Assembly (NCBI GenBank): GCA_019054805.1
Contig: JAHQIY010000018.1
Coordinates: forward strand, 186,001 to 250,000
Source of the DNA: Brachionus manjavacas
Lineage: Eukaryota > Rotifera > Eurotatoria > Ploima > Brachionidae
Reading direction: 5' to 3'
DNA: 64,000 nucleotides
Shown: piece after piece, positions 3,474 to 60,613 of the stretch
Position numbering within the stretch: the stretch's first letter is position 1
How the letters are laid out: every line of letters starts with the position of its first letter
Made by a program: the position numbers and the translations under genes
Notes under the pieces: model-generated
What the model was told of the DNA's origin: nothing
Seen by the model: the letters and a program-made list of their open reading frames with translations, nothing else
Databases searched by the model: none

Positions 3474-3690
3474 AAATGAGGAGGGGCGGTGATGATGCAG
3501 ATTCCTAGCAGAATGATGATGCAGTTTTGTCGATAGCAAAGAAAAAGTTTATTTTGAAAAAAAAAGTCTATTAGACTTACAGCAAAAAAAGATTAAGATA
3601 AACATTCTTTGGTCAATTTATTTACAACAAATATTTTGAATAGAAAAAAATTATTTTCAAAAAAATGCAATACTGCTAACTCTACCATTG
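3474..3690. repeat. Truncated, rearranged first satellite unit (left edge)
   Basis: The array opens with only about 35 bp of the GC-richer module (aaatgaggagggg... to cctagc at about 3509). It then jumps, through an extra 'gatgatgcag' copy (3515-3524), into the A-rich module at 'ttttgtcgatagc'. About 330 bp of a normal unit are missing. Degenerate edge units are expected where unequal exchange cannot homogenise the array boundary. Confidence 0.8.
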
Positions 3691-5305
3691 GCCGGTCCCA
3701 AGTCCGGATGAGAAAATGAGGAGGGGCGGTGATGATGCAGATGCCTAGCGGCCGGGGCAAGGAGGCTTGCAAGCAAGAGCTAATGACATGTCTGGCAGAC
3801 CCTTAGTACTTAGTGAAAAAAGTTAAGTATCTTTTTTTGGATATGCTTGTTTCCATCTATAGATACGCTTGGTTTGTGGTTCCAAGCTAGTCTAAATAGT
3901 TGTCGAGTTCGCAGCCATTAAGTGCTCGGATGAGTGGCGCTGTTTATGATGAACGTCCCATAGTAACTTTGGCGGCAGATTGTTGAGTCGTTACCATACC
4001 GATGCCGGTCCCAAGTCCGGATGAAAAAATGGGAGGGAGACTAATCAGCACATAAATACCGAGTTTTGTTGATAGCCAAGAAAAAGTTTATTTCGAAAAA
4101 AAAGTCTATTAGACTTACAGCAAAAAAAGATTAAGATAAACATTCTTTGGTCAATTTATTTACAACAAATATTTTGAATAGAAAAAATTATTTTCAAAAA
4201 AATGCAATACTGCTAACTCTACCATTGGCCGGTCCCAAGTCCGGATGAGAAAATGAGGAGGGGCGGTGATGATGCAGATGCCTAGCGGCCGGGGCAAGGA
4301 GGCTTGCAAGCAAGAGCTAATGACATGTCTGGCAAACCCTTAGTACTTAGTGAAAAAAGTTAAGTTTCTTTTTTTGGATATGCTTGTATCCATCTATAGA
4401 TACGCTTGGTTTGTGGTTCCAAGCTAGTCTAAATAGTTGTCGAGTTCGCAGCCATTAAGTGCTCGGATGAGTGGCGCTGTTTATGATGAACGTCCCATAG
4501 TAACTTTGGCGGCAGATTGTTGAGTCGTAACCATACCGATGCCGGTCCCAAGTCCGGATGAAAAAATGGGAGGAGACTAATCAGCACATAAATACCGAGT
4601 TTTGTCGATAGCAAAGAAAAAGTTTATTTTGAAAAAAAGTCTATTAGAGTTACAGCAAAAAAAGATTAAGATAAACATTCTTTGGTCAATTTATTTACAA
4701 CAAATATTTTGAATAGAAAAAAATTATTTTCAAAAAAATGCAATACTGCTAACTCTACCATTGGCCGGTCCCAAGTCCGGATGAGAAAATGAGGAGGGGC
4801 GGTGATGATGCAGATGCCTAGCGGCCGGGGCAAGGAGGCTTGCAAGCAAGAGCTAATGACATGTCTGGCAGACCCTTAGTACTTAGTGAAAAAAGTTAAG
4901 TATCTTTTTTTGGATATGCTTGTATCCATCTATAGATACGCTTGGTTTGTGGTTCCAAGCTAGTCTAAATAGTTGTCGAGTTCGCAGCCATTAAGTGCTC
5001 GGATGAGTGGCGCTGTTTATTATGAACGTCCCATAGTAACTTTGGCGGCAGATTGTTGAGTCGTAACCATACCGATGCCGGTCCCAAGTCCGGATGAAAA
5101 AATGGGAGGGAGACTAATCAGCACATAAATACCGAGTTTTGTTGATAGCCAAGAAAAAGTTTATTTCGAAAAAAAAAGTCTATTAGACTTACAGCAAAAA
5201 AAGATTAAGATAAACATTCTTTGGTCAATTTATTTACAACAAATATTTTGAATAGAAAAAAATTATTTTCAAAAAAAAATGCAATACTGCTAACTCTACC
5301 ATTGG

Positions 5306-5321
5306 CCGGTCCCAAGTCCGG
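5306..5321. repeat. Module-boundary motif with self-complementary ends (occurs twice per unit)
   Basis: CCGGTCCCAAGTCCGG starts both modules in almost every unit; the second copy in this unit lies at 5619-5634. The ends CCGG/CCGG can pair as a small stem. It is also the site at which two units at about 41.75-42.38 kb appear to have recombined, so it acts as a short internal direct repeat. Confidence 0.85.
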
Positions 5322-5391
5322 ATGAGAAAATGAGGAGGGGCGGTGATGATGCAGATGCCTAGCGGCCGGGGCAAGGAGGCTTGCAAGCAAG

Positions 5392-5425
5392 AGCTAATGA
5401 CATGTCTGGCAGACCCTTAGTACTT
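5392..5425 (+). other. 5S-rRNA-like segment inside each satellite unit (tentative)
   Basis: AGCTAA (5392-5397), then GTCTGGC, then TTAGTACTT (5417-5425) occur in the same order and at nearly the same spacing as AGCTAAGC...GTCGGGC...GTTAGTACTTGG of eukaryotic 5S rRNA, the region of the internal Pol III promoter (25 versus 22 bases between the first and last blocks). The rest of 5S is not recognisable, so this may be a distant relic of a 5S gene or coincidence. Confidence 0.3.
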
Positions 5426-5617
5426 AGTTAAAAAAGTTAAGTATCTTTTTTTGGATATGCTTGTATCCATCTATAGATACGCTTGGTTTGTGGTTCCAAG
5501 CTAGTCTAAATAGTTGTCGAGTTCGCAGCCATTAAGTGCTCGGATGAGTGGCGCTGTTTATGATGAACGTCCCATAGTAACTTTGGCGGCAGATTGTTGA
5601 GTCGTAACCATACCGAT

Positions 5618-5845
5618 GCCGGTCCCAAGTCCGGATGAAAAAATGGGAGGGAGACTAATCAGCACATAAATACCGAGTTTTGTCGATAGCAAAGAAAAAG
5701 TTTATTTTGAAAAAAAAAGTCTATTAGAGTTACAGCAAAAAAAGATTAAGATAAACATTCTTTGGTCAATTTATTTACAACAAATATTTTGAATAGAAAA
5801 AAATTATTTTCAAAAAAAAATGCAATACTGCTAACTCTACCATTG
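5618..5845. repeat. Representative satellite unit: 228-bp A-rich module
   Basis: Runs from the second copy of the motif (5618) to the base before the next unit's first copy (5846). It is rich in A tracts of 5-9 bases, which carry most of the length differences between units. In most units it also has the 15-bp perfect dyad AAGTCTATTAGACTT (for example 5176-5190); this particular unit has one of the variants, ...TATTAGAGTT, that breaks the dyad. A-tract-rich DNA of this sort is usually bent and disfavours or phases nucleosomes, which is general knowledge rather than shown here. Confidence 0.85.
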
Positions 5846-8800
5846 GCCGGTCCCAAGTCCGGATGAGAAAATGAGGAGGGGCGGTGATGATGCAGATGCC
5901 TAGCGGCCGGGGCAAGGAGGCTTGCAAGCAAGAGCTAATGACATGTCTGGCAGACCCTTAGTACTTAGTGAAAAAAGTTAAGTATCTTTTTTTGGATATG
6001 CTTGTATCCATCTATAGATACGCTTGGTTTGTGGTTCCAAGCTAGTCTAAATAGTTGTCGAGTTCGCAGCCATTAAGTGCTCGGATGAGTGGCGCTGTTT
6101 ATTATGAACGTCCCATAGTAACTTTGGCGGCAGATTGTTGAGTCGTAACCATACCGATGCCGGTCCCAAGTCCGGATGAAAAAATGGGAGGGAGACTAAT
6201 CAGCACATAAATACCGAGTTTTGTTGATAGCCAAGAAAAAGTTTATTTCGAAAAAAGAGTCTATTAGACTTACAGCAAAAAAAGATTAAGATAAACATTC
6301 TTTGGTCAATTTATTTACAACAAATATTTTGAATAGAAAAAAATTATTTTCAAAAAAAAAATGCAATACTGCTAACTCTACCATTGGCCGGTCCCAAGTC
6401 CGGATGAGAAAATGAGGAGGGCGGTGATGATGCAGATGCCTAGCGGCCGGGGCAAGGAGGCTTGCAAGCAAGAGCTAATGACATGTCTGGCAGACCCTTA
6501 GTACTTAGTGAAAAAAGTTAAGTATCTCTTTTTGGATATGCTTGTATCCATCTATAGATACGCTTGGTTTGTGGTTCCAAGCTAGTCTAAATAGTTGTCG
6601 AGTTCGCAGCCATTAAGTGCTCGGATGAGTGGCGCTGTTTATTATGAACGTCCCATAGTAACTTTGGCGGCAGATTGTTGAGTCGTAACCATACCGATGC
6701 CGGTCCCAAGTCCGGATGAAAAAATGGGAGGAGACTAATCAGCACATAAATACCGAGTTTTGTTGATAGCCAAGAAAAAGTTTATTTCGAAAAAAAAAGT
6801 CTATTAGACTTACAGCAAAAAAAGATTAAGATAAACATTCTTTGGTCAATTTATTTACAACAAATATTTTGAATAGAAAAAAATTATTTTCAAAAAAAAA
6901 TGCAATACTGCTAACTCTACCATTGGCCGGTCCCAAGTCCGGATGAGTAAATGAGGAGGGGCGGTGATGATGCAGATGCCTAGCGGACGGGGCAAGGAGG
7001 CTTGCAAGCAAGAGCTAATGACATGTCTGGCAGACCCTTAGTACTTAGTGAAAAAAGTTAAGTATCTTTTTTTGGATATGCTTGTATCCATCTATAGATA
7101 CGCTTGGTTTGTGGTTCCAAGCTAGTCTAAATAGTTGTCGAGTTCGCAGCCATTAAGTGCTCGGATGAGTGGCGCTGTTTATGATGAACGTCCCATAGTA
7201 ACTTTGGCGGCAGATTGTTGAGTCGTTACCATACCGACGCCGGTCCCAAGTCCGGATAAAAGAATGGGAGGGAGACTAATCAGCACATAAATACCGAGTT
7301 TTGTTGATAGCCAAGAAAAAGTTTATTTCGAAAAAAAAAGTCTATTAGACTTACAGCAAAAAAAGATTAAGATAAACATTCTTTGGTCAATTTATTTACA
7401 GCAAATATTTTGAATAGAAAAAAATTATTTTCAAAAAAAAATGCAATACTGCTAACTCTACCATTGGCCGGTCCCAAGTCCGGATGAGAAAATGAGGAGG
7501 GGCGGTGCTGATGCAGATGCCTAGCGGCCGGGGCAAGGAGGCTTGCAAGCAAGAGCTAATGACATGTCTGGCAGACCCTTAGTACTTAGTGAAAAAAGTT
7601 AAGTATCTTTTTTTGGATATGCTTGTATCCATCTATAGATACGCTTGGTTTGTGGTTCCAAGCTAGTCTAAATAGTTGTCGAGTTCGCAGCCATTAAGTG
7701 CTCGGATGAGTGGCGCTGTTTATGATGAACGTCCCATAGTAACTTTGGCGGCAGATTGTTGAGTCGTAACCATACCGATGCCGGTCCCAAGTCCGGATGA
7801 AAGAATGGGAGGGAGACTAATCAGCACATAAATACCGAGTTTTGTCGATAGCAAAGAAAAAGTTTATTTTGAAAAAAAAAGTCTATTAGACTTACAGCAA
7901 AAAAAGATTAAGATAAACATTCTTTGGTCAATTTATTTACAACAAATATTTTGAATAGAAAAAAATTATTTTCAAAAAAAAAATGCAATACTGCTAACTC
8001 TACCATTGGCCGGTCCCAAGTCCGGATGAGAAAATGAGGAGGGGCGGTGATGATGCAGATGCCTAGCGGCCGGGGCAAGGAGGCTTGCAAGCAAGAGCTA
8101 ATGACATGTCTGGCAGACCCTTAGTACTTAGTGAAAAAAGTTAAGTATCTTTTTTTGGATATGCTTGTATCCATCTATAGATACGCTTGGTTTGTGGTTC
8201 CAAGCTAGTCTAAATAGTTGTCGAGTTCGCAGCCATTAAGTGCTCGGATGAGTGGCGCTGTTTATGATGAACGTCCCATAGTAACTTTGGCGGCAGATTG
8301 TTGAGTCGTTACCATACCGACGCCGGTCCCAAGTCCGGATAAGAGAATGGGAGGGAGACTAATCAGCACATAAATACCGAGTTTTGTTGATAGCCAAGAA
8401 AAAGTTTATTTCGAAAAAAAAAAGTCTATTAGACTTACAGCAAAAAAAGATTAAGATAAACATTCTTTGGTCAATTTATTTACAGCAAATATTTTGAATA
8501 GAAAAAAATTATTTTCAAAAAAAAATGCAATACTGCTAACTCTACCATTGGCCGGTCCCAAGTCCGGATGAGAAAATGAGGAGGGGCGGTGCTGATGCAG
8601 ATGCCTAGCGGCCGGGGCAAGGAGGCTTGCAAGCAAGAGCTAATGACATGTCTGGCAGACCCTTAGTACTTAGTGAAAAAAGTTAAGTATCTCTTTTTGG
8701 ATATGCTTGTATCCATCTATAGATACGCTTGGTTTGTGGTTCCAAGCTAGTCTAAATAGTTGTCGAGTTCGCAGCCATTAAGTGCTCGGATGAGTGGCGC

Positions 8801-11800
8801 TGTTTATGATGAACGTCCCATAGTAACTTTGGCGGCAGATTGTTGAGTCGTAACCATACCGATGCCGGTCCCAAGTCCGGATGAAAAAATGGGAGTGAGA
8901 CTAATCAGCACATAAATACCGAGTTTTGTCGATAGCAAAGAAAAAGTTTATTTTGAAAAAAAAAGTCTATTAGACTTACAGCAAAAAAAGATTAAGATAA
9001 ACATTCTTTGGTCAATTTATTTACAACAAATATTTTGAATAGAAAAAAATTATTTTCAAAAAAAAAATGCAATACTGCTAACTCTACCATTGGCCGGTCC
9101 CAAGTCCGGATGAGAAAATGAGGAGGGGCGGTGATGATGCAGATGCCTAGCGGACGGGGCAAGGAGGCTTGCAAGCAAGAGCTAATGACATGTCTGGCAG
9201 ACCCTTAGTACTTAGTGAAAAAAGTTAAGTATCTTTTTGGATATGCTTGTATCCATCTATAGATACGCTTGGTTTGTGGTTCCAAGCTAGTCTAAATAGT
9301 TGTCGAGTTCGCAGCCATTAAGTGCTCGGATGAGTGGCGCTGTTTATGATGAACGTCCCATAGTAACTTTGGCGGCAGATTGTTGAGTCGTAACCATACC
9401 GATGCCGGTCCCAAGTCCGGATGAAAAAATGGGAGGGAGACTAATCAGCACATAAATACCGAGTTTTGTTGATAGCCAAGAAAAAGTTTATTTCGAAAAA
9501 AAAAGTCCATTAGACTTACAGCAAAAAAAGATTAAGATAAACATTCTTTGGTCAATTTATTTACAACAAATATTTTGAATAGAAAAAAATTATTTTCAAA
9601 AAAAAATGCAATACTGCTAACTCTACCATTGGCCGGTCCCAAGTCCGGATGAGAAAATGAGGGGGGGCGGTGATGATGCAGATGCCTAGCGGCCGGGGCA
9701 AGGAGGCTTGCAAGCAAGAGCTAATGACATGTCTGGCAGACCCTTAGTACTTAGTGAAAAAAGTTAAGTATCTCTTTTTGGATATGCTTGTATCCATCTA
9801 TAGATACGCTTGGTTTGTGGTTCCAAGCTAGTCTAAATAGTTGTCGAGTTCGCAGCCATTAAGTGCTCGGATGAGTGGCGCTGTTTATGATGAACGTCCC
9901 ATAGTAACTTTGGCGGCAGATTGTTGAGTCGTAACCATACCGATGCCGGTCCCAAGTCCGGATGAAAAAATGGGAGGGAGACTAATCAGCACATAAATAC
10001 CGAGTTTTGTCGATAGCAAAGAAAAAGTTTATTTTGAAAAAAAGTCTATTAGAGTTACAGCAAAAAAGATTAAGATAAACATTCTTTGGTCAATTTATTT
10101 ACAACAAATATTTTGAATAGAAAAAAATTATTTTCAAAAAAAAATGCAATACTGCTAACTCTACCATTGGCCGGTCCCAAGTCCGGATGAGAAAATGAGG
10201 AGGGCGGTGATGATGCAGATGCCTAGCGGCCGGGGCAAGGAGGCTTGCAAGCAAGAGCTAATGACATGTCTGGCAGACCCTTAGTACTTAGTGAAAAAAG
10301 TTAAGTATCTCTTTTTGGATATGCTTGTATCCATCTATAGATACGCTTGGTTTGTGGTTCCAAGCTAGTCTAAATAGTTGTCGAGTTCGCAGCCATTAAG
10401 TGCTCGGATGAGTGGCGCTGTTTATGACTAACGTCCCATAGTAACTTTGGCGGCAGATTGTTGAGTCGTAACCATACCGATGCCGGTCCCAAGTCCGGAT
10501 GAAAAAATGGGAGGGAGACTAATCAGCACATAAATACCGAGTTTTGTTGATAGCCAAGAAAAAGTTTATTTCGAAAAAAAAAGTCTATTAGACTTACAGC
10601 AAAAAAAGATTAAGATAAACATTCTTTGGTCAATTTATTTACAACAAATATTTTGAATAGAAAAAAATTATTTTCAAAAAAAAAATGCAATACTGCTAAC
10701 TCTACCATTGGCCGGTCCCAAGTCCGGATGAGAAAATGAGGAGGGGCGGTGATGATGCAGATGCCTAGCGGACGGGGCAAGGAGGCTTGCAAGCAAGAGC
10801 TAATGACATGTCTGGCAGACCCTTAGTACTTAGTGAAAAAAGTTAAGTATCTTTTTTTGGATATGCTTGTATCCATCTATAGATACGCTTGGTTTGTGGT
10901 TCCAAGCTAGTCTAAATAGTTGTCGAGTTCGCAGCCATTAAGTGCTCGGATGAGTGGCGCTGTTTATGATGAACGTCCCATAGTAACTTTGGCGGCAGAT
11001 TGTTGAGTCGTAACCATACCGATGCCGGTCCCAAATCCGGATAAAAGAATGGGAGGGAGACTAATCAGCACATAAATACCGAGTTTTGTCGATAGCAAAG
11101 AAAAAGTTTATTTTGAAAAAAAAAGTCTATTAGACTTACAGCAAAAAAAGATTAAGATAAACATTCTTTGGTCAATTTATTTACAACAAATATTTTGAAT
11201 AGAAAAAAATTAATTTCAAAAAAAAATGCAATACTGCTAACTCTACCATTGGCCGGTCCCAAGTCCGGATGAGAAAATGAGGAGGGGCGGTGATGATGCA
11301 GATGCCTAGCGGCCGGGGCAAGGAGGCTTGCAAGCAAGAGCTAATGACATGTCTGGCAGACCCTTAGTACTTAGTGAAAAAAGTTAAGTATCTTTTTTTG
11401 GATATGCTTGTATCCATCTATAGATACGCTTGGTTTGTGGTTCCAAGCTAGTCTAAATAGTTGTCGAGTTCGCAGCCATTAAGTGCTCGGATGAGTGGCG
11501 CTGTTTATGACTAACGTCCCATAGTAACTTTGGCGGCAGATTGTTGAGTCGTAACCATACCGATGCCGGTCCCAAGTCCGGATGAAAAAATGGGAGGAGA
11601 CTAATCAGCACATAAATACCGAGTTTTGTTGATAGCCAAGAAAAAGTTTATTTCGAAAAAAAAAGTCTATTAGACTTACAGCAAAAAAAGATTAAGATAA
11701 ACATTCTTTGGTCAATTGATTTACAGCAAATATTTTGAATAGGAAAAAATTATTTTCAAAAAAAAAATGCAATACTGCTAACTCTACCATTGGCCGGTCC

Positions 11801-14800
11801 CAAGTCCGGATGAGAAAATGAGGGGGGGCGGTGATGATGCAGATGCCTAGCGGCCGGGGCAAGGAGGCTTGCAAGCAAGAGCTAATGACATGTCTGGCAG
11901 ACCCTTAGTACTTAGTGAAAAAAGTTAAGTATCTTTTTTGGATATGCTTGTATCCATCTATAGATACGCTTGGTTTGTGGTTCCAAGCTAGTCTAAATAG
12001 TTGTCGAGTTCGCAGCCATTAAGTGCTCGGATGAGTGGCGCTGTTTATGATGAACGTCCCATAGTAACTTTGGCGGCAGATTGTTGAGTCGTAACCATAC
12101 CGATGCCGGTCCCAAGTCCGGATGAAAAAATGGGAGGGAGACTAATCAGCACATAAATACCGAGTTTTGTCGATAGCCAAGATAAAGTTTATTTCGAAAA
12201 AAAAAGTCTATTAGACTTACAGCAAAAAAAGATTAAGATAAACATTCTTTGGTCAATTTATTTACAGCAAATATTTTGAATAGAAAAAAATTATTTTCAA
12301 AAAAAAAATGCAATACTGCTAACTCTACCATTGGCCGGTCCCAAGTCCGGATGAGAAAATGAGGATGGGGCGGTGATGATGCAGATGCCTAGCGGCCGGG
12401 GCAAGGAGGCTTGCAAGCAAGAGCTAATGACATGTCTGGCAGACCCTTAGTACTTAGTGAAAAAGTTAAGTATCTTTTTTTGGATATGCTTGTATCCATC
12501 TATAGATACGCTTGGTTTGTGGTTCCAAGCTAGTCTAAATAGTTGTCGAGTTCGCAGCCATTAAGTGCTCGGATGAGTGGCGCTGTTTATGATGAACGTC
12601 CCATAGTAACTTTGGCGGCAGATTGTTGAGTCGTAACCATACCGATGCCGGTCCCAAATCCGGATAAAAGAATGGGAGGGAGACTAATCAGCACATAAAT
12701 ACCGAGTTTTGTCGATAGCCAAGATAAAGTTTATTTCGAAAAAAAAAGTCTATTAGACTTACAGCAAAAAAAGATTAAGATAAACATTCTTTGGTCAATT
12801 TATTTACAGCAAATATTTTGAATAGAAAAAAATTATTTTCAAAAAAATGCAATACTGCTAACTCTACCATTGGCCGGTCCCAAGTCCGGATGAGAAAATG
12901 GGGGGGCGGTGATGATGCAGATGCCTAGCGGCCGGGGCAAGGAGGCTTGCAAGCAAGAGCTAATGACATGTCTGGCAGACCCTTAGTACTTAGTGAAAAA
13001 AGTTAATTATCTTTTTTGGATATGCTTGTATCCATCTATAGATACGCTTGGTTTGTGGTTCCAAGCTAGTCTAAATAGTTGTCGAGTTCGCAGCCATTAA
13101 GTGCTCGGATGAGTGGCGCTGTTTATGATGAACGTCCCATAGTAACTTTGGCGGCAGATTGTTGAGTCGTAACCATACCGATGCCGGTCCCAAGTCCGGA
13201 TGAAAAAATGGGAGGGAGACTAATCAGCACATAAATACCGAGTTTTGTTGATAGCCAAGAAAAAGTTTATTTCGAAAAAAAGTCTATTAGACTTACAGCA
13301 AAAAAAGATTAAGATAAACATTCTTTGGTCAATTTATTTACAACAAATATTTTGAATAGAAAAAAATTATTTTCAAAAAAATGCAATACTGCTAACTCTA
13401 CCATTGGCCGGTCCCAAGTCCGGATGAGAAAATGAGGAGGGGCGGTGATGATGCAGATGCCTAGCGGCCGGGGCAAGGAGGCTTGCAAGCAAGAGCTAAT
13501 GACATGTCTGGCAGACCCTTAGTACTTAGTGAAAAAAGTTAAGTATCTTTTTTTGGATATGCTTGTATCCATCTATAGATACGCTTGGTTTGTGGTTCCA
13601 AGCTAGTCTAAATAGTTGTCGAGTTCGCAGCCATTAAGTGCTCGGATGAGTGGCGCTGTTTATGATGAACGTCCCATAGTAACTTTGCCGGCAGATTGTT
13701 GAGTCGTAACCATACCGATGCCGGTCCCAAGTCCGGATGAAAAAATGGGAGGGAGACTAATCAGCACATAAATACCGAGTTTTGTCGATAGCCAAGAAAA
13801 AGTTTATTTCGAAAAAAAAAGTCTATTAGACTTACAGCAAAAAAAGATTAAGATAAACATTCTTTGGTCAATTTATTTACAGCAAATATTTTGAATAGAA
13901 AAAAATTATTTTCAAAAAAAAATGCAATACTGCTAACTCTACCATTGGCCGGTCCCAAGTCCGGATGAGAAAATGAGGGGGGGCGGTGATGATGCAGATG
14001 CCTAGCGGCCGGGGCAAGGAGGCTTGCAAGCAAGAGCTAATGACATGTCTGGCAGACCCTTAGTACTGAGTGAAAAAAGTTAAGTATCTTTTTTTGGATA
14101 TGCTTGTATCCATCTATAGATACGCTTGGTTTGTGGTTCCAAGCTAGTCTAAATAGTTGTCGAGTTCGCAGCCATTAAGTGCTCGGATGAGTGGCGCTGT
14201 TTATGATGAACGTCCCATAGTAACTTTGGCGGCAGATTGTTGAGTCGTAACCATACCGATGCCGGTCCCAAGTCCGGATGAAAAAATGGGAGGGAGACTA
14301 ATCAGCACATAAATACCGAGTTTTGTTGATAGCCAAGAAAAAGTTTATTTCGAAAAAAAGTCTATTAGACTTACAGCAAAAAAAGATTAAGATAAACATT
14401 CTTTGGTCAATTTATTTACAACAAATATTTTGAATAGAAAAAAATTATTTTCAAAAAAATGCAATACTGCTAACTCTACCATTGGCCGGTCCCAAGTCCG
14501 GATGAGAAAATGAGGAGGGGCGGTGATGATGCAGATGCCTAGCGGCCGGGGCAAGGAGGCTTGCAAGCAAGAGCTAATGACATGTCTGGCAGACCCTTAG
14601 TACTTAGTGAAAAAAGTTAAGTATCTTTTTTGGATATGCTTGTATCCATCTATAGATACGCTTGGTTTGTGGTTCCAAGCTAGTCTAAATAGTTGTCGAG
14701 TTCGCAGCCATTAAGTGCTCGGATGAGTGGCGCTGTTTATGATGAACGTCCCATAGTAACTTTGGCGGCAGATTGTTGAGTCGTAACCATACCGATGCCG

Positions 14801-32800: not shown

Positions 32801-35699
32801 GCTAACTCTACCATTGGCCGGTCCCAAGTCCGGATGAGAAAATGAGGAGGGGCGGTGATGATGCAGATGCCTAGCGGCCGGGGCAAGGAGGCTTGCAAGC
32901 AAGAGCTAATGACATGTCTGGCAGACCCTTAGTACTTAGTGAAAAAAGTTAAGTATCTTTTTTTGGATATGCTTGTATCCATCTATAGATACGCTTGGTT
33001 TGTGGTTCCAAGCTAGTCTAAATAGTTGTCGAGTTCGCAGCCATTAAGTGCTCGGATGAGTGGCGCTGTTTATGATGAACGTCCCATAGTAACTTTGGCG
33101 GCAGATTGTTGAGTCGTAACCATACCGATGCCGGTCCCAAGTCCGGATGAAAAAATGGGAGGGAGACTAATCAGCACATAAATACCGAGTTTTGTCGATA
33201 GCCAAGATAAAGTTTATTTCGAAAAAAATGTCTATTAGACTTACAGCAAAAAAAGATTAAGATAAACATTCTTTGGTCAATTTATTTACAACAAATATTT
33301 TGAATAGAAAAAAATTATTTTCAAAAAAAATTGCAATTCTGCTAACTCTACCATTGGCCGGTCCCAAGTCCGGATGAGAAAATGAGGAGGGGCGGTGATG
33401 ATGCAGATGCCTAGCGGCCGGGGCAAGGAGGCTTGCAAGCAAGATCTAATGACATGTCTGGCAGACCCTTAGTACTTAGTGAAAAAGTTAAGTATCTTTT
33501 TTTGGATATGCTTGTATCCATCTATAGATTCGCTTGGTTTGTGGTTCCAAGCTAGTCTAAATAGTTGTCGAGTTCGCAGCCATTAAGTGCTCGGATGAGT
33601 GGCGCTGTTTATGATGAACGTCCCATAGTAACTTTGGCGGCAGATTGTTGAGTCGTAACCATACCGATGCCGGTCCCAAGTCCGGATGAAAAAATGGGAG
33701 GGAGACTAATCAGCACATAAATACCGAGTTTTGTCGATAGCCAAGATAAAGTTTATTTCGAAAAAATGTCTATTAGACTTACAGCAAAAAAAGATTAAGA
33801 TAAACATTCTTTGGTCAATTTATTTACAACAAATATTTTGAATAGAAAAAAATTATTTTCAAAAAAATGCAATTCTGCTAACTCTACCATTGGCCGGTCC
33901 CAAGTCCGGATGAGAAAATGAGGAGGGGCGGTGATGATGCAGATGCCTAGCGGCCGGGGCATGGAGGCTTGCAAGCAAGATCTAATGACATGTCTGGCAG
34001 ACCCTTAGTACTTAGTGAAAAAAGTTAAGTATCTTTTTTTGGATATGCTTGTATCCATCTATAGATTCGCTTGGTTTGTGGTTCCAAGCTAGTCTAAATA
34101 GTTGTCGAGTTCGCAGCCATTAAGTGCTCGGATGAGTGGCGCTGTTTATGATGAACGTCCCATAGTAACTTTGGCGGCAGATTGTTGAGTCGTAACCATA
34201 CCGATGCCGGTCCCAAGTCCGGATGAAAAAATGGGAGGGAGACTAATCAGCACATAAATACCGAGTTTTGTCGATAGCCAAGATAAAGTTTATTTCGAAA
34301 AAAAAGTCTATTAGACTTACAGCAAAAAAAGATTAAGATAAACATTCTTTGGTCAATTTATTTACAACAAATATTTTGAATAGAAAAAAATTATTTTCAA
34401 AAAAAAAATGCAATTCTGCTAACTCTACCATTGGCCGGTCCCAAGTCCGGATGAGAAAATGAGGAGGGGCGGTGATGATGCAGATGCCTAGAGGCCGGGG
34501 CATGGAGGCTTGCAAGCAAGAGCTAATGACATGTCTGGCAGACCCTTAGTACTTAGTGAAAAAAGTTAAGTATCTCTTTTGGATATGCTTGTATCCATCT
34601 ATAGATACGCTTGGTTTGTGGTTCCAAGCTAGTCTAAATAGTTGTCGAGTTCGCAGCCATTAAGTGCTCGGATGAGTGGCGCTGTTTATGATGAACGTCC
34701 CATAGTAACTTTGGCGGCAGATTGTTGAGTCGTAACTATACCGATGCCGGTCCCAAGTCCGGATGAAAAATGGGAGGAGACTAATCAGCACATAAATACC
34801 GAGTTTTGTCGATAGCCAAGAAAAAGTTTATTTCGAAAAAAAAAGTCTATTAGACTTACAGCAAAAAAAGATTAAGATAAACATTCTTTGGTCAATTTAT
34901 TTACAACAAATATTTTGAATAGAAAAAAATTATTTTCAAAAAAAAATGCAATTCTGCTAACTCTACCATTGGCCGGTCCCAAGTCCGGATGAGAAAATGA
35001 GGAGGGGCGGTGATGATGCAGATGCCTAGCGGCCGGGGCAAGGAGGCTTGCAAGCAAGAGCTAATGACATGTCTGGCAGACCCTTAGTACTTAGTGAAAA
35101 AAGTTAAGTATCTTTTTTGGATATGCTTGTATCCATCTATAGATACGCTTGGTTTGTGGTTCCAAGCTAGTCTAAATAGTTGTCGAGTTCGCAGCCATTA
35201 AGTGCTCGGATGAGTGGCGCTGTTTATGATGAACGTCCCATAGTAACTTTGGCGGCAGATTGTTGAGTCGTAACTATACCGATGCCGGTCCCAAGTCCGG
35301 ATGAAAAAATGGGAGGGAGACTAATCAGCACATAAATACCGAGTTTTGTCGATAGCCAAGAAAAAGTTTATTTCGAAAAAAGTCTATTAGACTTACAGCA
35401 AAAAAAGATTAAGATAAACATTCTTTGGTCAATTTATTTACAACAAATATTTTGAATAGAAAAAAATTATTTTCAAAAAAAAAATGCAATAATGCTAACT
35501 CTACCATTGGCCGGTCCCAAGTCCGGATGAGAAAATGAGGAGGGGCGGTGATGATGCAGATGCCTAGAGGCCGGGGCAAGGAGGCTTGCAAGCAAGAGCT
35601 AATGACATGTCTGGCAGACCCTTAGTACTTAGTGAAAAAGTTAAGTATCTTTTTTGGATATGCTTGTATCCATCTATAGATACGCTTGGTTTGTGGTTC

Positions 35700-38600
35700 C
35701 AAGCTAGTCTAAATAGTTGTCGAGTTCGCGGCCATTAAGTGCTCGGATGAGTGGCGCTGTTTATGATGAACGTCCCATTGTAACTTTGGCGGCAGATTGT
35801 CGAGTCGTAACCATACCTTTGCCGGTCCCAAGTCCGGATGAAAAAATGGGAGGGAGACTAATCAGCACATAAATACCGAGTTTTGTCGATAGCCAAGAAA
35901 AAGTTTATTTCGATAAAAAGAGTCTATTAGACTTACAGCAAAAAAAGATTAAGATAAACATTCTTTGGTCAATTTATTTACAACAAATATTTTGAATAGA
36001 AAAAATTATTTTCAAAAAAAAAAATGCAATACTGCTAACTCTACCATTGGCCGGTCCCAAGTCCGGATGAGAAAATGAGGAGGGGCGGTGATGATGCAGA
36101 TGCCTAGAGGCCGGGGCAAGGAGGCTTGCAAGCAAGAGCTAATGACATGTCTGGCAGACCCTTAGTACTTAGTGAAAATAGTTAAGTATCTTTTTTTGGA
36201 TATGCTTGTATCCATCTATAGATACGCTTGGTTTGTGGTTCCAAGCTAGTCTAAATAGTTGTCGAGTTCGCAGCCATTAAGTGCTCGGATGAGTGGCGCT
36301 GTTTATGACTAACGTCCCATAGTAACTTTGGCGGCAGATTGTTGAGTCGTAACCATACCTTTGCCGGTCCCAAGTCCGGATGAAAAAATGGGAGGGAGAC
36401 TAATCAGCACATAAATACCGAGTCTTGTCGATAGCCAAGAAAAAGTTTATTTCGATAAAAAGAGTCTATTAGACTTACAGCAAAAAAAGATTAAGATAAA
36501 CATTCTTTGGTCAATTTATTTACAACAAATATTTTGAATAGAAAAAAATTATTTTCAAAAAAAAATGCAATTCTGCTAACTCTACCATTGGCCGGTCCCA
36601 AGTCCGGATGAGAAAATGAGGAGGGGCGGTGATGATGCAGATGCCTAGCGGCCGTGGCATGGAGGCTAGCAAGCAAGATCTAATGACATGTCTGGCAGAC
36701 CCTTAGTACTTAGTGAAAAAAGTTAAGTATCTTTTTTTGGATATGCTTGTATCCATCTATAGATTCGCTTGGTTTGTGGTTCCAAGCTAGTCTAAATAGT
36801 TGTCGAGTTCGCAGCCATTAAGTGCTCGGATGAGTGGCGCTGTTTATGATGAACGTCCCATAGTAACTTTGGCGGCAGATTGTTGAGTCGTAACCATACC
36901 GATGCCGGTCCCAAGTCCGGATGAAAAAATGGGAGGGAGACTAATCAGCACATAAATACCGAGTTTTGTCGATAGCCAAGATAAAGTTTATTTCGAAAAA
37001 AGTCTATTAGACTTACACCAAAAAAAGATTAAGATAAACATTCTTTGGTCAATTTATTTACAACAAATATTTTGAATAGAAAAATTATTTTCAAAAAAAA
37101 TGCAATTCTGCTAACTCTACCATTGGCCGGTCCCAAGTCCGGATGAGAAAATGAGGAGGGGCGGTGATGATGCAGATGCCTAGAGGCCGGGGCATGGAGG
37201 CTTGCAAGCAAGAGCTAATGACATGTCTGGCAGACCCTTAGTACTTAGTGAAAAAAGTTAAGTATCTTTTTTTGGATATGCTTGTATCCATCTATAGATA
37301 CGCTTGGTTTGTGGTTCCAAGCTAGTCTAAATAGTTGTCGAGTTCGCAGCCATTAAGTGCTCGGATGAGTGGCGCTGTTTATGATGAACGTCCCATAGTA
37401 ACTTTGGCGGCAGATTGTTGAGTCGTAACTATACCGATGCCGGTCCCAAGTCCGGATGAAAAAATGGGAGGGAGACTAATCAGCACATAAATACCGAGTT
37501 TTGTCGATAGCCAAGAAAAAGTTTATTTCGAAAAAAAAAGTCTATTAGACTTACAGCAAAAAAAGATTAAGATAAACATTCTTTGGTCAATTTATTTACA
37601 ACAAATATTTTGAATAGAAAAAATTTATTTTCAAAAAAAAATGCAATAATGCTAACTCTACCATTGGCCGGTCCCAAGTCCGGATGAGAAAATGAGGAGG
37701 GGCGGTGATGATGCAGATGCCTAGAGGCCGGGGCAAGGAGGCTTGCAAGCAAGAGCTAATGACATGTCTGGCAGACCCTTAGTACTTAGTGAAAAAAGTT
37801 AAGTATCTTTTTTTGGATATGCTTGTATCCATCTATAGATACGCTTGGTTTGTGGTTCCAAGCTAGTCTAAATAGTTGTCGAGTTCGCGGCCATTAAGTG
37901 CTCGGATGAGTGGCGCTGTTTATGATGAACGTCCCATTGTAACTTTGGCGGCAGATTGTCGAGTCGTAACCATACCTTTGCCGGTCCCAAGTCCGGATGA
38001 AAAAATGGGAGGGAGACTAATCAGCACATAAATACCGAGTTTTGTCGATAGCCAAGAAAAAGTTTATTTCGATAAAAAGAGTCTATTAGACTTACAGCAA
38101 AAAAAGATTAAGATAAACATTCTTTGGTCAATTTATTTACAACAAATATTTTGAATAGAAAAAAATTATTTTCAAAAAAAAAATGCAATACTGCTAACTC
38201 TACCATTGGCCGGTCCCCAGTCCGGATGAGAAAATGAGGAGGGGCGGTGATGATGCAGATGCCTAGAGGCCGGGGCAAGGAGGCTTGCAAGCAAGAGCTA
38301 ATGACATGTCTGGCAGACCCTTAGTACTTAGTGAAAAAGTTAAGTATCTTTTTTGGATATGCTTGTATCCATCTATAGATACGCTTGGTTTGTGGTTCCA
38401 AGCTAGTCTAAATAGTTGTCGAGTTCGCAGCCATTAAGTGCTCGGATGAGTGGCGCTGTTTATGACTAACGTCCCATAGTAACTTTGGCGGCAGATTGTT
38501 GAGTCGTAACCATACCTTTGCCGGTCCCAAGTCCGGATGAAAAAATGGGAGGGAGACTAATCAGCACATAAATACCGAGTCTTGTCGATAGCCAAGAAAA

Positions 38601-41100
38601 AGTTTATTTCGATAAAAAGAGTCTATTAGACTTACAGCAAAAAAAGATTAAGATAAACATTCTTTGGTCAATTTATTTACAACAAATATTTTGAATAGAA
38701 AAAATTATTTTCAAAAAAATGCAATACCGCTAACTCTACCATTGGCCGGTCCCAAGTCCGGATGAGAAAATGAGGAGGGGCGGTGATGATGCAGATGCCT
38801 AGCGGCCGGGGCAAGGAGGCTTGCAAGCAAGAGCTAATGACATGTCTGGCAGACCCTTAGTACTTAGTGAAAAAGTTAAGTATCTTTTTTTGGATATGCT
38901 TGTATCCATCTATAGATACGCTTGGTTTGTGGTTCCAAGCTAGTCTAAATAGTTGTCGAGTTCGCGGCCATTAAGTGCTCGGATGAGTGGCGCTGTTTAT
39001 GACTAACGTCCCATAGTAACTTTGGCGGCAGATTGTTGAGTCGTAACCATACCGATGCCGGTCCCAAGTCCGGATGAAAAAATGGGAGGGAGACTAATCA
39101 GCACATAAATACCGAGTTTTGTCGATAGCCAAGAAAAAGTTTATTTCGAAAAAAAAAGTCTATTAGACTTACAGCAAAAAAAGATTAAGATAAAAATTCT
39201 TTGGTCAATTTATTTACAACAAATATTTTGAATAGAAAAAAATTATTTTCAAAAAAAAATGCAATACTGCTAACTCTACCATTGGCCGGTCCCAAGTCCG
39301 GATGAGAAAATGAGGAGGGGCGGTGATGATGCAGATGCCTAGCGGCCGGGGCAAGGAGGCTTGCAAGCAAGAGCTAATGACATGTCTGGCAGACCCTTAG
39401 TACTTAGTGAAAAAGTTAAGTATCTTTTTTTGGATATGCTTGTATCCATCTATAGATACGCTTGGTTTGTGGTTCCAAGCTAGTCTAAATAGTTGTCGAG
39501 TTCGCGGCCATTAAGTGCTCGGATGAGTGGCGCTGTTTATGACTAACGTCCCATAGTAACTTTGGCGGCAGATTGTTGAGTCGTAACCATACCGATGCCG
39601 GTCCCAAGTCCGGATGAAAAAATGGGAGGGAGACTAATCAGCACATAAATACCGAGTTTTGTCGATAGCCAAGAAAAAGTTTATTTCGAAAAAAGTCTAT
39701 TAGACTTACAGCAAAAAAGATTAAGATAAAAATTCTTTGGTCAATTTATTTACAACAAATATTTTGAATAGAAAAAAATTATTTTCAAAAAAAAAATGCA
39801 ATACTGCTAACTCTACCATTGGCCGGTCCCAAGTCCGGATGAGAAAATGAGGAGGGGCGGTGATGATGCAGATGCCTAGCGGCCGGGGCAAGGAGGCTTG
39901 CAAGCAAGAGCTAATGACATGTCTGGCAGACCCTTAGTACTTAGTGAAAAAGTTAAGTATCTTTTTGGATATGCTTGTATCCATCTATAGATACGCTTGG
40001 TTTGTGGTTCCAAGCTAGTCTAAATAGTTGTCGAGTTCGCGGCCATTAAGTGCTCGGATGAGTGGCGCTGTTTATGATGAACGTCCCATTGTAACTTTGG
40101 CGGCAGATTGTCGAGTCGTAACCATACCTTTGCCGGTCCCAAGTCCGGATGAAAAAATGGGAGGGAGACTAATCAGCACATAAATACCGAGTTTTGTCGA
40201 TAGCCAAGAAAAAGTTTATTTCGATAAAAAGAGTCTATTAGACTTACAGCAAAAAAAGATTAAGATAAACATTCTTTGGTCAATTTATTTACAACAAATA
40301 TTTTGAATAGAAAAAATTATTTTCAAAAAAAATGCAATACTGCTAACTCTACCATTGGCCGGTCCCAAGTCCGGATGAGAAAATGAGGAGGGGCGGTGAT
40401 GATGCAGATGCCTAGAGGCCGGGGCAAGGAGGCTTGCAAGCAAGAGCTAATGACATGTCTGGCAGACCCTTAGTACTTAGTGAAAAAGTTAAGTATCTTT
40501 TTTGGATATGCTTGTATCCATCTATAGATACGCTTGGTTTGTGGTTCCAAGCTAGTCTAAATAGTTGTCGAGTTCGCAGCCATTAAGTGCTCGGATGAGT
40601 GGCGCTGTTTATGACTAACGTCCCATAGTAACTTTGGCGGCAGATTGTTGAGTCGTAACCATACCTTTGCCGGTCCCAAGTCCGGATGAAAAAATGGGAG
40701 GGAGACTAATCAGCACATAAATACCGAGTCTTGTCGATAGCCAAGAAAAAGTTTATTTCGATAAAAAGAGTCTATTAGACTTACAGCAAAAAAAGATTAA
40801 GATAAACATTCTTTGGTCAATTTATTTACAACAAATATTTTGAATAGAAAAAATTATTTTCAAAAAAATGCAATACCGCTAACTCTACCATTGGCCGGTC
40901 CCAAGTCCGGATGAGAAAATGAGGAGGGGCGGTGATGATGCAGATGCCTAGCGGCCGGGGCAAGGAGGCTTGCAAGCAAGAGCTAATGACATGTCTGGCA
41001 GACCCTTAGTACTTAGTGAAAAAAGTTAAGTATCTTTTTTTGGATATGCTTGTATCCATCTATAGATACGCTTGGTTTGTGGTTCCAAGCTAGTCTAAAT
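35700..41100. repeat. Higher-order repeat block, about 2.15-kb period
   Basis: A distinctive pair of neighbouring units recurs three times. One unit has 'gcggccattaag', 'cccattgtaac', 'gattgtcgag' and 'catacctttgcc'. The next has 'tgactaacg', 'catacctttgcc' and 'gagtcttgtcg'. The 'gagtcttg' marker sits at about 36421, 38578 and 40728, spacings of about 2157 and 2150 bp, that is four units. The intervening units differ between copies, so the block was amplified as a group and then partly overwritten. Confidence 0.8.
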
Positions 41101-41751
41101 AGTTGTCGAGTTCGCAGCCATTAAGTGCTCGGATGAGTGGCGCTTTTTATGACTAACGTCCCATAGGAACTTTGGCTGCAGATTGTTGAGTCGTAACCAT
41201 ACCGATGCCGGTCCCAAGTCCGGATGAAAAAATGGGAGGGAGACTAATCAGCACATAAATACCGATTTTTGTCGATAGCCAAGAAAAAATTTTTTTGAAA
41301 AAAAAAGTCTATTAGACTTACAGCAAAAAAAGATTAAGATAAACATTTTTTGGTCAATTTATTTACAACAAATATTTTGAATGGAAAAAAATTATTTTCA
41401 AAAAAAAATGCAATACTGCTAACTCTACCATTGGCCGGTCCCAAGTCAGGATGAGAAAATGAGGAGGGGCGGTGATAATGCAGATGCCTAGCGGCCGGGG
41501 CAAGGAGGCTTGCAAGCAAGAGCTAATGACATGTCTGGCAGACCCTTAGTACCTAGTGAAAAAAGTTAAGTATCTTTTTTTGGATATGCTTGTATCCATC
41601 TATAGATACGCTTGGTTTGTGGTTCCAAGCTAGTCTAAATAGTTGTCGAGTTCGCAGCCATTAAGTGCTCGGATGAGTGGCGCTGTTTATGATGAACGTC
41701 CCATTGTAACTTTGGCGGCAGATTGTTGAGTCGTAACCATACCGATGCCGG

Positions 41752-42377
41752 TCCCAAGTACGGATGAGAAAATGAGGAGGGGCGGTGATGATGCAGATGC
41801 CTAGCGGCCGGGGCAAGGAGGCTTGCAAGCAAGAGCTAATTACATGTCTGGCAGACCCTTAGTACTTAGTGAAAAAAGTTAAGTATCTTTTTTTGGATAA
41901 GCTAGTATCCATCAATAGATACGCTTGCTTTGTGGTTCCAAGCTAGTCTAAATAGTTGTCGAGTTCGCAGCCATTTAGTGCTCGGATGAGTAGCGCTGTT
42001 TATGATGAACGTCCCATAGTATTTTTGGCGGCAGATTGTTGAGTCGTAACCATACCGATGACGGTCCCAAGTACGGATGAGAAAATGAGGAGGGGCGGTG
42101 ATGATGCAGATGCCTAGCGGCCGGGGCAAGGAGGCTTGCAAGCAAGAGCTAATGACATGTCTGGCAGACCCTTAGTACTTAGTGAAAAAAGTTAAGTATC
42201 TTTTTTTGGAAAAGCTAGTATCCATCTATAGATACGCTTGCTTTGTGGTTCCAAGCTAGTCTAAAGTGTTGTCGAGTTCGCAGCCATTAAGTGCTCGGAT
42301 GAGTGGCGCTGTTTATGATGAACGTCCCATAGTTACTTTGGCGGCAGATTGTTGAGTCGTAACCATACCGATGCCGG
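41752..42377. repeat. Two short (313-bp) satellite units lacking the A-rich module
   Basis: Between about 41.75 and 42.38 kb the second boundary motif (gccggtcccaagtacggatga at about 41747, gacggtcccaagtacggatga at about 42060) leads straight into 'gagaaaatgaggagggg', the start of the GC-richer module, instead of into the A-rich module. Two successive units are therefore about 313 bp long. Both carry the private changes 'aagtacgg' and 'aagctagtatcc', so one shortened unit was probably made once and then duplicated. Confidence 0.85.
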
Positions 42378-45158
42378 TCCCAAGTCCGGATGAAAAAATG
42401 GGAGGGAGACTAATCAGCACATAAATACCGAGTTTTGTCGATAGCCAAGAAAAAATTTTTTTGAAAAAAAAAGTCTATTAGACTTACAGCAAAAATAGAT
42501 TAAGATAAACATTCTTTGGTCAATATATTTATAACAAATATTTTGAATAGAAAAAAATTATTTTCAAAAAAAAATGCAATACTGCTAACTCTACCATTGG
42601 CCGGTCCCAAGTCAGGATGAGAAAATGAGGAGGGGCGGTGATGATGCAGATGCCTAGCGGCCGGGGCAAGGAGGCTTGCAAGCAAGAGCTAATGACATGT
42701 ATGGCAGACCCTTAGTACTTAGTGAAAAAAGTTAAGTATCTTTTTTTGGATATGCTTGTATCCATCTATAGATACGCTTGGTTTGTGGTTCCAAGCTAGT
42801 CTAAATAGTTGTCGAGTTCGCAGCCATTAAGTGCTCGGATGAGTGGCGCTGTTTATGACTAACGTCCCATAGTAACTTTGGCGGCAGATTGTTGAGTCGT
42901 AACCATACCGATGCCGGTCCCAAGTCCGGATGAAAAAATGGGAGGGAGACTAATCAGCACATAAATACCGAGTTTTGTCGATAGCGAAGAAAAAGTATAT
43001 TTCGAAAAAAGTCTATTAGACTTACAGCAAAAAAAGATTAAGATAAACATTCTTTGGTCAATTTATTTACAACAAATATTTTGAATGGAAAAAATTATTT
43101 TCAAAAAAATGCAATACTGCTAACTCTACCATTGGCCGGTCCCAAGTCAGGATGAGAAAATGAGGAGGGGCGGTGATGATGCAGATGCCTAGCGGCCGGG
43201 GCAAGGAGGCTTGCAAGCAAGAGCTAATGACATGTCTGGCAGACCCTTAGTACCTAGTGAAAAAGTTAAGTATCTTTTTTGGATATGCTTGTATCCATCT
43301 ATAGATACGCTTGGTTTGTGGTTCCAAGCTAGTCTAAATAGTTGTCGAGTTCGCAGCCATTAAGTGCTCGGATGAGTGGCGCTGTTTATGATGAACGTCC
43401 CATAGTAACTTTGGCGGCAGATTGTTGAGTCGTAACCATACCGATGCCGGTCCCAAGTCCGGATGAAAAAATGGGAGGGAGACTAATCAGCACATAAATA
43501 CCGAGTTTTGTCGATAGCGAAGAAAAAGTTTATTTCGAAAAAAAAAGTCTATTAGACTTACAGCAAAAAAAGATTAAGATAAACATTCTTTGGTCAATTT
43601 ATTTACAACAAATATTTTGAATGGAAAAAAATTATTTTCAAAAAAAAATGCAATACTGCTAACTCTACCATTGGCCGGTCCCAAGTCCGGATGAGAAAAT
43701 GAGGAGGGGCGGTGATGATGCAGATGCCTAGCGGCTGGGGCAAGGAGGCTTGCAAGCAAGAGCTAATGACATGTCTGGCAGACCCTTAGTACTTAGTGAA
43801 AAAAGTTAAGTATCTTTTTTTGGATATGCTTGTATCCATCTAAAGATACGCTTGGTTTGTGGTTCCAAGCTAGTCTAAATAGTTGTCGAGTTCGCAGCCA
43901 TTAAGTGCTCGGATGAGTGGCGCTGTTTATGATGAACGTCCCATAGTAACTTTGGCGGCAGATTGTTGAGTCGTAACCATACCGATGCCGGTCCCAAGTC
44001 CGGATGAAAAAATGGGAGGGAGACTAATCAGCACATAAATACCGAGTTTTGTCGATAGCCAAGAAAAAGTTTATTTCGATAAAAAGAGTCTATTAGACTT
44101 ACAGCAAAAAAAGATTAAGATAAACATTCTTTGGTCAATTTATTTACAACAAATATTTTGAATAGAAAAAAATTATTTTCAAAAAAAAATGCAATACCGC
44201 TAACTCTACCATTGGCCGGTCCCAAGTCCGGATGAGAAAATGAGGAGGGGCGGTGATGATGCAGATGCCTAGCGGCCGGGGCAAGGAGGCTTGCAAGCAA
44301 GAGCTAATGACATGTCTGGCAGACCCTTAGTACCTAGTGAAAAAAGTTAAGTATCTTTTTTGGATATGCTTGTATCCATCTATAGATACGCTTGGTTTGT
44401 GGTTCCAAGCTAGTCTAAATAGTTGTCGAGTTCGCAGCCATTAAGTGCTCGGATGAGTGGCGCTGTTTATGATGAACGTCCCATAGTAACTTTGGCGGCA
44501 GATTGTTGAGTCGTAACCATACCGATGCCGGTCCCAAGTCCGGATGAAAAAATGGGAGGGAGACTAATCAGCACATAAATACCGAGTTTTGTCGATAGCG
44601 AAGAAAAAGTTTATTTCGAAAAAAGTCTATTAGACTTACAGCAAAAAAAGATTAAGATAAACATTCTTTGGTCAATTTATTTACAACAAATATTTTGAAT
44701 GGAAAAAATTATTTTCAAAAAAATGCAATACTGCTAACTCTACCATTGGCCGGTCCCAAGTCCGGATGAGAAAATGAGGAGGGGCGGTGATGATGCAGAT
44801 GCCTAGCGGCTGGGGCAAGGAGGCTTGCAAGCAAGAGCTAATGACATGTCTGGCAGACCCTTAGTACTTAGTGAAAAAAGTTAAGTATCTTTTTTTGGAT
44901 ATGCTTGTATCCATCTAAAGATACGCTTGGTTTGTGGTTCCAAGCTAGTCTAAATAGTTGTCGAGTTCGCAGCCATTAAGTGCTCGGATGAGTGGCGCTG
45001 TTTATGATGAACGTCCCATAGTAACTTTGGCGGCAGATTGTTGAGTCGTAACCATACCGATGCCGGTCCCAAGTCCGGATGAAAAAATGGGAGGGAGACT
45101 AATCAGCACATAAATACCGAGTTTTGTCGATAGCCAAGAAAAAGTTTTTTTTGAAAAA

Positions 45159-45288
45159 TGTCACCATCGCCTCGGTCACTATTGTCTTGAACCGTATCAT
45201 CATCTGATAGCCAATTTGACGTTTCCAAATATTCATGTAAATAGTAAGTCGGTGAATAGCTATTTGGTCTCTCGAGGTTATCTCTTAA
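45159..45288 (-). pseudogene. Coding-like exon cut off by the right edge of the satellite
   Basis: On the minus strand, a splice-acceptor-like 'attatag' at 45289-45295 is followed by 43 codons without a stop, beginning L-R-D-N-L-E-R-P-N and including W-L-S-D-D-D-T-V-Q-D-N-S. The base composition is clearly less AT-rich than the flanks. At 45158 the sequence turns abruptly into satellite and the frame soon ends. I do not recognise the protein. It could be the stump of a gene broken when the array formed, a captured fragment, or a chance open frame; no partner exon was found between it and the kinesin gene. Confidence 0.4.
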
Positions 45289-48166: not shown

Positions 48167-48324
48167 TTTTCTTCTGATCTTTTTTTTGATTGTTTTTTTT
48201 CTCCAAAATTCGTAATAAATATTATTTTAAGCAATTTTTTAATTTTATTATTTTAATAGAAAAAAAAATTATTTTAAATTTCTAAATGTGAATAACAAAG
48301 AAAAGAGTAAGAACTAAGCGATGA

Positions 48325-48403
48325 ATGTGTCGCTTGGCGATCTGCAATGCTTATCACCAGCTCTTATTTGATTGACAATTGGTGGCGCCCAATCCAAGCG
48401 ACT
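48325..48403 (-). promoter_or_regulatory. Candidate kinesin-13 promoter segment (paired CCAAT boxes, GC-rich core)
   Basis: About 160-240 bp upstream of the kinesin ATG is a short GC-richer island in AT-rich DNA. It has a CCAAT on the plus strand (48389-48393), one on the minus strand (ATTGG, 48378-48382), a GGCGCC between them and a 9-bp inverted repeat GTCGCTTGG/CCAAGCGAC flanking. Opposed CCAAT boxes with a GC core are typical of cell-cycle gene promoters in other animals; the role here is inferred. Confidence 0.3.
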
Positions 48404-60607: not shown

Positions 60608-60613
60608 GTTGAT

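Follow-up and report, generated by a model that had tools for sequence, protein, structure and literature searches.

A two-module satellite array

A tandem satellite array occupies positions 3,474–45,158 of the plus strand in a 64,000-nucleotide stretch of DNA from the rotifer Brachionus manjavacas. This stretch, hereafter the window, spans 186,001–250,000 of contig JAHQIY010000018.1 (C18) in a 114.2-Mb assembly of 61 contigs, in which we label contigs Cn and fetched loci Lnnn. The module boundaries of the array are marked by a 20-bp motif. A scan of the window that tolerated up to four mismatches located 154 copies between 3,691 and 45,062, all on the plus strand, of which 140 are exact, 11 carry one mismatch, and three carry two. 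These copies follow one another head to tail at two spacings, 78 of 310–315 bp and 75 of 222–230 bp, and sorting the 153 intervals by content separated 78 GC-richer modules, termed A, from 75 AT-rich modules, termed B. An earlier note on this DNA had counted about 77 head-to-tail copies of a two-module unit, in good agreement with these numbers. Partial copies at both ends, read by eye, place the edges of the array at ≈3,474 and ≈45,158. The GC content is 0.47 for A and 0.31 for B, and pairwise identity within the window is 98.7% (mean) for A and 97.4% (median) for B; these four values derive from a sorting into 76 A and 77 B modules, in which two A copies of 313 bp whose core is altered were counted as B.

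The alternation of A and B is broken once, by a run of three successive A modules without B at ≈41,434–42,406 (plus strand), recognized from the motif spacing and by reading the sequence. Only two open reading frames of at least 80 amino acids touch positions 3,400–45,200, one of 89 residues inside the three-A run and one of 105 residues across the right edge, and neither is of note; we therefore rejected a protein-coding reading of the array. In the 114-Mb assembly, 515 + 875 occurrences of the motif contrast with none of the reversed motif, so the abundance of the motif is not a matter of chance.

The boundary motif resembles the core of a twister ribozyme

On present evidence, the boundary motif forms the core of a self-cleaving, twister-like ribozyme of type P1, and one such ribozyme is predicted at each module boundary. 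We refer to the ribozyme at the 5′ end of A as T5 and to that at the 3′ end of A as T3; the two differ in sequence within a single unit. An Rfam search of positions 3,400–24,000, about half of the array, at E ≤ 0.1 returned 76 twister and 38 RAGATH-11 matches, all on the plus strand, and no family other than twister-P1 (RF03160) and RAGATH-11 (RF03148). Between 3,400 and 5,200, the twister-P1 matches have E values from 5.1e-8 to 7.6e-5. At E ≤ 0.01, all 60 matches in four further loci of 10 kb each likewise belong to these two families, no family matched the window at 45,200–64,000, and neither RF03160 nor RF03148 had a match in any of 14 control genomes.

One unit illustrates the arrangement. 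Its T5 match spans 4,210–4,266 on the plus strand (44.1 bits, E = 5.1e-8), with a predicted cut between U4214 and A4215, and its T3 match spans 4,523–4,578 on the same strand (33.1 bits, E = 7.6e-5), with a predicted cut between U4528 and A4529 and a 3′ core that is short of one G. The cut sites were placed by the U-A rule for twister, as given in the portion of PMC5408937 available to us. The consensus, together with 115 of the 154 window copies under a strict pattern, contains the core elements of the ribozyme, namely the UAA at the cut, GGUCCCAAG, CCGG, and the 3′ GAGGG. With RF03160 the array shares the core bases, stems P1, P2, and P4, the pseudoknots T1 and T2, and the U-A cut site, whereas it differs in that P3 is a short junction, that the L2/L4 pair of T2 in the satellites is A-U instead of G-C, and that the scores fall under the cut-off.

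To compare the helices, we chose by hand ten representative strings from 61 distinct twister strings. Among these ten, P1 pairs are kept through two-sided changes at P1.1 (A-U/C-G), P1.2 (C-G/G-C), P1.3 (C-G/U-A), and P1.4 (C-G/G-C), as are the P2 pairs P2.2 and P2.4 (C-G/U-A) and P2.3 (A-U/C-G). The pseudoknot T2 pair is G-C in the dispersed twisters described below and in those of C1 and A-U in the satellites, and pseudoknot T1 is identical in all ten strings. Pairing fails at several outer P1 positions, at P2.4 in satellite T5 (U-U), and at P1.1 in satellite T3 (G-A). The compensatory changes in P1, P2, and T2 lend support to the proposed ribozyme fold. They also bear on the suggestion, made in the earlier note, that two unrelated sequences were joined through a chance short direct repeat and then amplified, the motif having no RNA role. 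The two modules do differ in composition while sharing the motif, and A is found with other linkers, as such a junction would predict. The motif, however, is only part of a longer twister match, whose adjacent helices show paired changes, and in the dispersed copies that we read both cassette ends are already twisters. We therefore interpret the shared motif as a twister-like core and regard a chance join as very improbable.

Each A module contains RAGATH-11

Full-length RAGATH-11 matches number 78 in the window, the same as the count of A modules, with scores of 86.5–105.3 bits relative to a gathering score of 79.4. In the example unit, the match covers 4,383–4,503 on the plus strand (104.3 bits). 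From the T5 and T3 matches on either side of it, the predicted A RNA would be 314 nt long and extend from 4,215 to 4,528 between two predicted cuts, and the adjoining B RNA, an AT-rich linker of 222 nt bounded by neighboring twister matches, would extend from 4,529 to 4,750, both on the plus strand. What sets these matches apart from RF03148 as such is their position between two twisters in tandem arrays. With up to two mismatches allowed, genome copies of the RAGATH-11 core number 311 + 498, and the reversed pattern is absent; among the places listed, single ones lie on C1, C2, C6, C10, C14, and C17. Module A also includes a run of seven T, which would speak against RNA polymerase III as the polymerase for the satellite form.

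A literature search for the name RAGATH-11 found no paper, and hence no function, a weak negative given that subscription papers lay mostly outside the search; in the portions of the literature covered, RAGATH appears as RAGATH-18 or as the bare name. Two RAGATH-11 patterns had no match in collections of viral contigs and genome contigs that perhaps exclude the source genome.

Module A is kept and module B is replaced

We compared the window with other arrays of the assembly using consensus modules built only from intervals of 285–335 bp for A and 200–345 bp for B. Between the window and an array further left on the same contig (C18-left, with 9 A and 13 B intervals), the consensus A modules are 99.7% identical (0.3% difference), whereas the B linkers are 82.7% identical with 16 gap columns (≈17% difference). 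Between the window and the array on C24, consensus A is still 96.2% identical but the B linkers align no better than shuffles; on C24, A is joined to an unrelated linker of ≈328 bp. Next to this replaced linker the T3 body is kept, with none or one of 40 bases differing between the window and C24. The other pairwise comparisons, made among C18-left, a middle array on C18 (C18-mid), and two stretches on C44 (C44a and C44b), gave 100% identity for A and 99.5–100% for B, which marks these arrays as one family. As both modules belong to the same alternating units, the contrast between them indicates either constraint on A or an exchange that is limited to A. The unit is thus modular, as the earlier note had supposed, and its modules behave differently, with A conserved between arrays and B diverged or replaced.

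A 26-base marker of B occurs 176 + 9 times in the genome. Among 100 places listed, 98 show the spacing of an array and lie on C18, C32, and C33; the other two are single places, on C13 and C19. The marker is periodic at ≈561 and ≈557 bp at C32:595982-598816 and C33:603234-613830, and the places on C32 and C33 are probably more arrays of the same family. Exchange between units may have left a trace in the three-A run of the window, where both inner junctions, at 41,747 and 42,060, are hybrid twisters composed of the 5′ half of T3 and the 3′ half of T5; these hybrids suggest the ribozyme core as a possible site of exchange.

Dispersed cassettes and the origin of the unit

RAGATH-11 also occurs in a second form of cassette, consisting of a twister, a variable stretch, RAGATH-11, and a second twister, which measures 401–403 bp in 19 copies. 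This set of 19 excludes a copy at position 1,004 of L036, whose T3 lacks the 3′ core. A 28-base marker of the dispersed form occurs 24 + 20 times in the genome, on at least seven contigs; our comparisons rest on part of these places, and at least one locus is double in the 22-row table of dispersed loci (L026 and L032 overlap). The two forms have the twisters and RAGATH-11 in common, the latter with 95 bases at 94.7–98.9% identity in nine 10-kb loci and an alignment score of 176 for the core of satellite relative to dispersed A, as compared with a shuffled maximum of 28. The stretch from T5 to RAGATH-11 aligns no better between the two forms than shuffles do (29 of 200 shuffles reach the score). 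Mean identity among the 19 copies is 97.8% for the cassette (lowest, 95.0%), 98.2% for the T3 body, and 67% for the flanks. Since the T3 body lies outside the A RNA that would be released, its conservation calls for more than the copying of that RNA.

A tandem pair of cassettes on C11 has motif spacings of 403, 372, and 402 bp, the middle of which is flanking sequence caught between two cassettes. For this reason, B is best seen as a linker that has been replaced or diverges fast rather than as a fusion partner. The earlier note had raised the prospect of finding one module without the other. For A this was the case, both on C24 with its ≈328-bp linker and in the ≈403-bp dispersed copies of the RAGATH-11 cassette, but the 26-base marker did not reveal B by itself at the 98 listed places with array-like spacing.

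Most dispersed copies on C9, C11, and C27 share a stretch of ≈195 bp upstream of T5 (for example, L033:2547-2740), and with it a left edge; on C12 this stretch has diverged. It is a possible promoter or element end. No clear right edge is evident across 18 dispersed copies, and inspection by eye of four satellite-type loci revealed no target-site duplication or poly-A tail. At L036, a segment of 1,436 bp that contains flanking sequence is 99.7% identical to its counterpart, and copies of this type, having spread with kilobases of flanking DNA, point to DNA duplication. Homology between dispersed loci mostly spans the cassette and its surroundings over 490–830 bp but departs from this in some pairs, for example L030 and L029 with 1,124 bp. 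Reverse-transcriptase-like open reading frames were noted by eye at L037, at least 3 kb from the cassette, and at L044, inside it. Given the limited extent of the homology, we do not count these reading frames as belonging to the cassette, and we rejected a larger retroelement around the dispersed cassettes. At L044:2400-5030, the twister and RAGATH-11 are ≈2.4 kb apart, with the reverse-transcriptase-like frame and inverted ends between them, and a zinc-finger gene adjoins. We set aside the possibility of an autonomous element here, as the locus reads as a cassette split by foreign sequence that includes a truncated piece of a retrotransposon; it is probably an old copy.

Neighboring genes and other observations

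On its right side the array adjoins a kinesin-13 gene (45,836–47,564, minus strand), one exon of which matches unnamed proteins at 84–88% over 62–100% of the query, Rotaria magnacalcarata at 73% over 63%, and fish at up to 57% over 99%. Further along the window are a reverse-transcriptase-like fragment recognized by eye (50,405–50,833, minus strand; no Pfam match) and a gene for a myotubularin-like phosphatase (52,504–53,496, minus strand). Elsewhere in the assembly, the 1.22-Mb contig C21 carries an intron-free, bacterial-looking cytochrome-oxidase operon with a 661-residue COX1 (L049, C21:119055-123401), and this contig, bacterial in look, would be that of a symbiont or a contaminant.

A proposed model of tandem self-cleaving cassettes

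We consider it probable that the array consists of tandem self-cleaving RNA cassettes, in which A is bounded by T5 and T3 and carries RAGATH-11 and B is a fast-changing linker. According to this model, every intact twister in a long plus-strand transcript of the array would cleave at its U-A site, and the products would be a RAGATH-11 RNA of ≈314 nt from A and a linker RNA of ≈222–230 nt from B. Both would carry a 5′-hydroxyl and a 2′,3′-cyclic phosphate, termini that ligases of the RtcB type can join to form a circle, and A would be the conserved product. Transcription, cleavage, circularization, and function are all steps that we infer beyond the anatomy of the DNA. The P1 strands offer one view of what such circles might do. 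In the satellites, there is little pairing between the 5′ P1 strand of either ribozyme and the 3′ P1 strand of its partner (two and three of six positions), whereas in the dispersed form the P1 strands that would be joined in an A circle pair at all six. A circle of satellite A or B alone would thus not re-form P1, and a dispersed A circle would. We draw no firm conclusion from this difference because, according to the accessible part of PMC5408937, twister is able to cleave without P1.

Several observations weigh against the cassette model. All twister scores observed lie below the Rfam gathering score of 67.2, the highest being 51.4 bits, or 45.2 in the scanned half of the array, and for this reason we call the motif twister-like and do not assign it to RF03160. 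A genome-wide RF03160 search, in which 62 of 4087 candidates were scored, gave none above the cut-off. The value of 67.2 bits is a curation threshold of Rfam and not a structural feature, and a likely reason for the low scores is the replacement of P3 by a short junction, which is stated for about 20% of twisters (PMC5408937, in the part available). The best hit of the genome search, at 47.5 bits, is a lone twister at L009 (C20:632454-632530, minus strand) with no satellite unit around it by eye. Beyond the scores, 39 of the 154 window copies miss the strict core, with the scissile A changed to T in eight of these and recurrent losses in the 3′ GGG among the window copies. Within the window, the ribozyme bodies, with a substitution rate of 0.0096–0.0097, are not less variable than the middle of A (0.0078). 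The predicted whole RNAs fold no more stably than shuffles (z = −0.68, −0.84, and −0.56; one folded stretch begins 3–4 bases before the predicted cut). Finally, the ten strings compared for pairing are hand-picked and related by descent.

In the window, the strict core is present in 61 of 76 T5 and 54 of 78 T3 copies, and a stricter pattern is present in 57 of 76 and 54 of 78. The corresponding strict-core counts for T5 and T3 are 9 of 14 and 3 of 10 in C18-left, 17 of 17 and 9 of 17 in C18-mid, 15 of 15 and 11 of 14 in C44a, 15 of 17 and 11 of 17 in C44b, and 16 of 17 and 11 of 14 in C24; five further motif copies fit neither T5 nor T3, and one of them is strict.

The 39 deviating copies of the window would be in keeping with a relic, an ordinary satellite that arose from a ribozyme-bearing sequence, in which the ribozymes have lost their importance and gene conversion keeps the A copies alike. 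The recurrence of variants, a sign that homogenization spreads them, and the variability of the ribozyme bodies in the window, not below that of the remainder of A, fit this explanation as well. It sits poorly, however, with the conservation of the T3 body, both in the dispersed copies and between the window and C24 despite the replaced linker, and with pairing that is preserved through two-sided changes. RAGATH-11 moreover is the least variable part of A, its core having a substitution rate of 0.0047 in the window; the B linker has a rate of 0.0173, which only the 5′ part of T3 exceeds (0.0256). On balance, we judge a relic unlikely.

A stronger contender, although we place it somewhat below an even chance, retains the same cleavage step and differs in the purpose of A. 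The cassette may be a selfish, retrozyme-like, non-autonomous retroelement, whose circular RNA would be reverse-transcribed and reinserted and whose arrays would be a by-product. The presence of dispersed copies on at least seven contigs, the conservation of the cassette but not of its flanks, and the left edge common to most dispersed copies are all consistent with mobility of this kind. The absence of target-site duplications or poly-A by eye at the four satellite-type loci, the lack of a clear right edge in the 18 dispersed copies, and the occurrence of some copies in DNA that was duplicated together with its flanks, as at L036, argue against it, and the ribozyme class is different from that of retrozymes. 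The self-cleaving cassette model also accommodates another role for A, as a host or domesticated non-coding RNA maintained, as tandem RNA genes are, in hundreds of copies, whose ends would be made by its own flanking twisters rather than by processing enzymes and which would then be circularized, as a natural counterpart of the engineered Tornado system. This proposal is tentative, and we hold it to be rather doubtful.

Relation to known systems and implications

Among known systems, hammerhead retrozymes are the closest to the array, and the engineered Tornado system is closest in its working principle. As described in the part of PMC7229834 available to us, hammerhead retrozyme transcripts self-process and are circularized most likely by an RtcB-type tRNA ligase, and circle formation by RtcB has been demonstrated in vitro for hammerhead retrozyme RNAs. 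Metazoan non-LTR (non-long terminal repeat) retrozymes are tandem repeats of ≈150–450 bp with a self-cleaving ribozyme, comparable to the modules of 310–315 and 222–230 bp with twister matches found here. Their ribozyme, however, is a type I hammerhead (PMC7229834, available part), whereas the searched half of the array contains only twister-P1 and RAGATH-11. The array, known here from its DNA alone, further differs in that each unit combines two modules, two distinct ribozymes, and, in one module, the conserved orphan RNA RAGATH-11. In the absence of a hammerhead, we do not class it as a retrozyme, although it may work like one. In Tornado, as outlined in the accessible text of PMC12118343, an RNA between two twisters is likewise cut out with ends suited to RtcB, and circle formation by this ligase underlies the system. 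Unlike the array, Tornado is engineered, with residual ends made to form a stem with each other, whereas the A RNA of the array would retain most of T5.

Twister-type ribozymes in repeated animal DNA have a precedent in truncated twisters at the 5′ end of RTE retrotransposons, which the available part of PMC7761336 mentions as work in preparation; these are single 5′ ribozymes of a protein-coding element, whereas those of the array are paired, tandem, and non-coding. The rotifer satellites rotiSat1 and rotiSat2 also form tandem arrays, but with monomers of 154 and 143 bp, and the word ribozyme does not occur in the main text of that paper (PMC8447722, available part). Animal satellites with self-cleaving ribozymes in the literature searched, in the portions available, are hammerhead repeats. 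No twister-bounded tandem array in an animal is described there, a weak negative since subscription papers were mostly outside the search.

A twister array whose units hold a conserved structured RNA between two different ribozymes would extend the satellite-ribozyme pathway to another ribozyme class and would offer a natural parallel to the Tornado design. RAGATH-11 would sit in a unit with a directly testable product, and if A were indeed a host RNA, this would provide a setting for giving the orphan RAGATH-11 a function.

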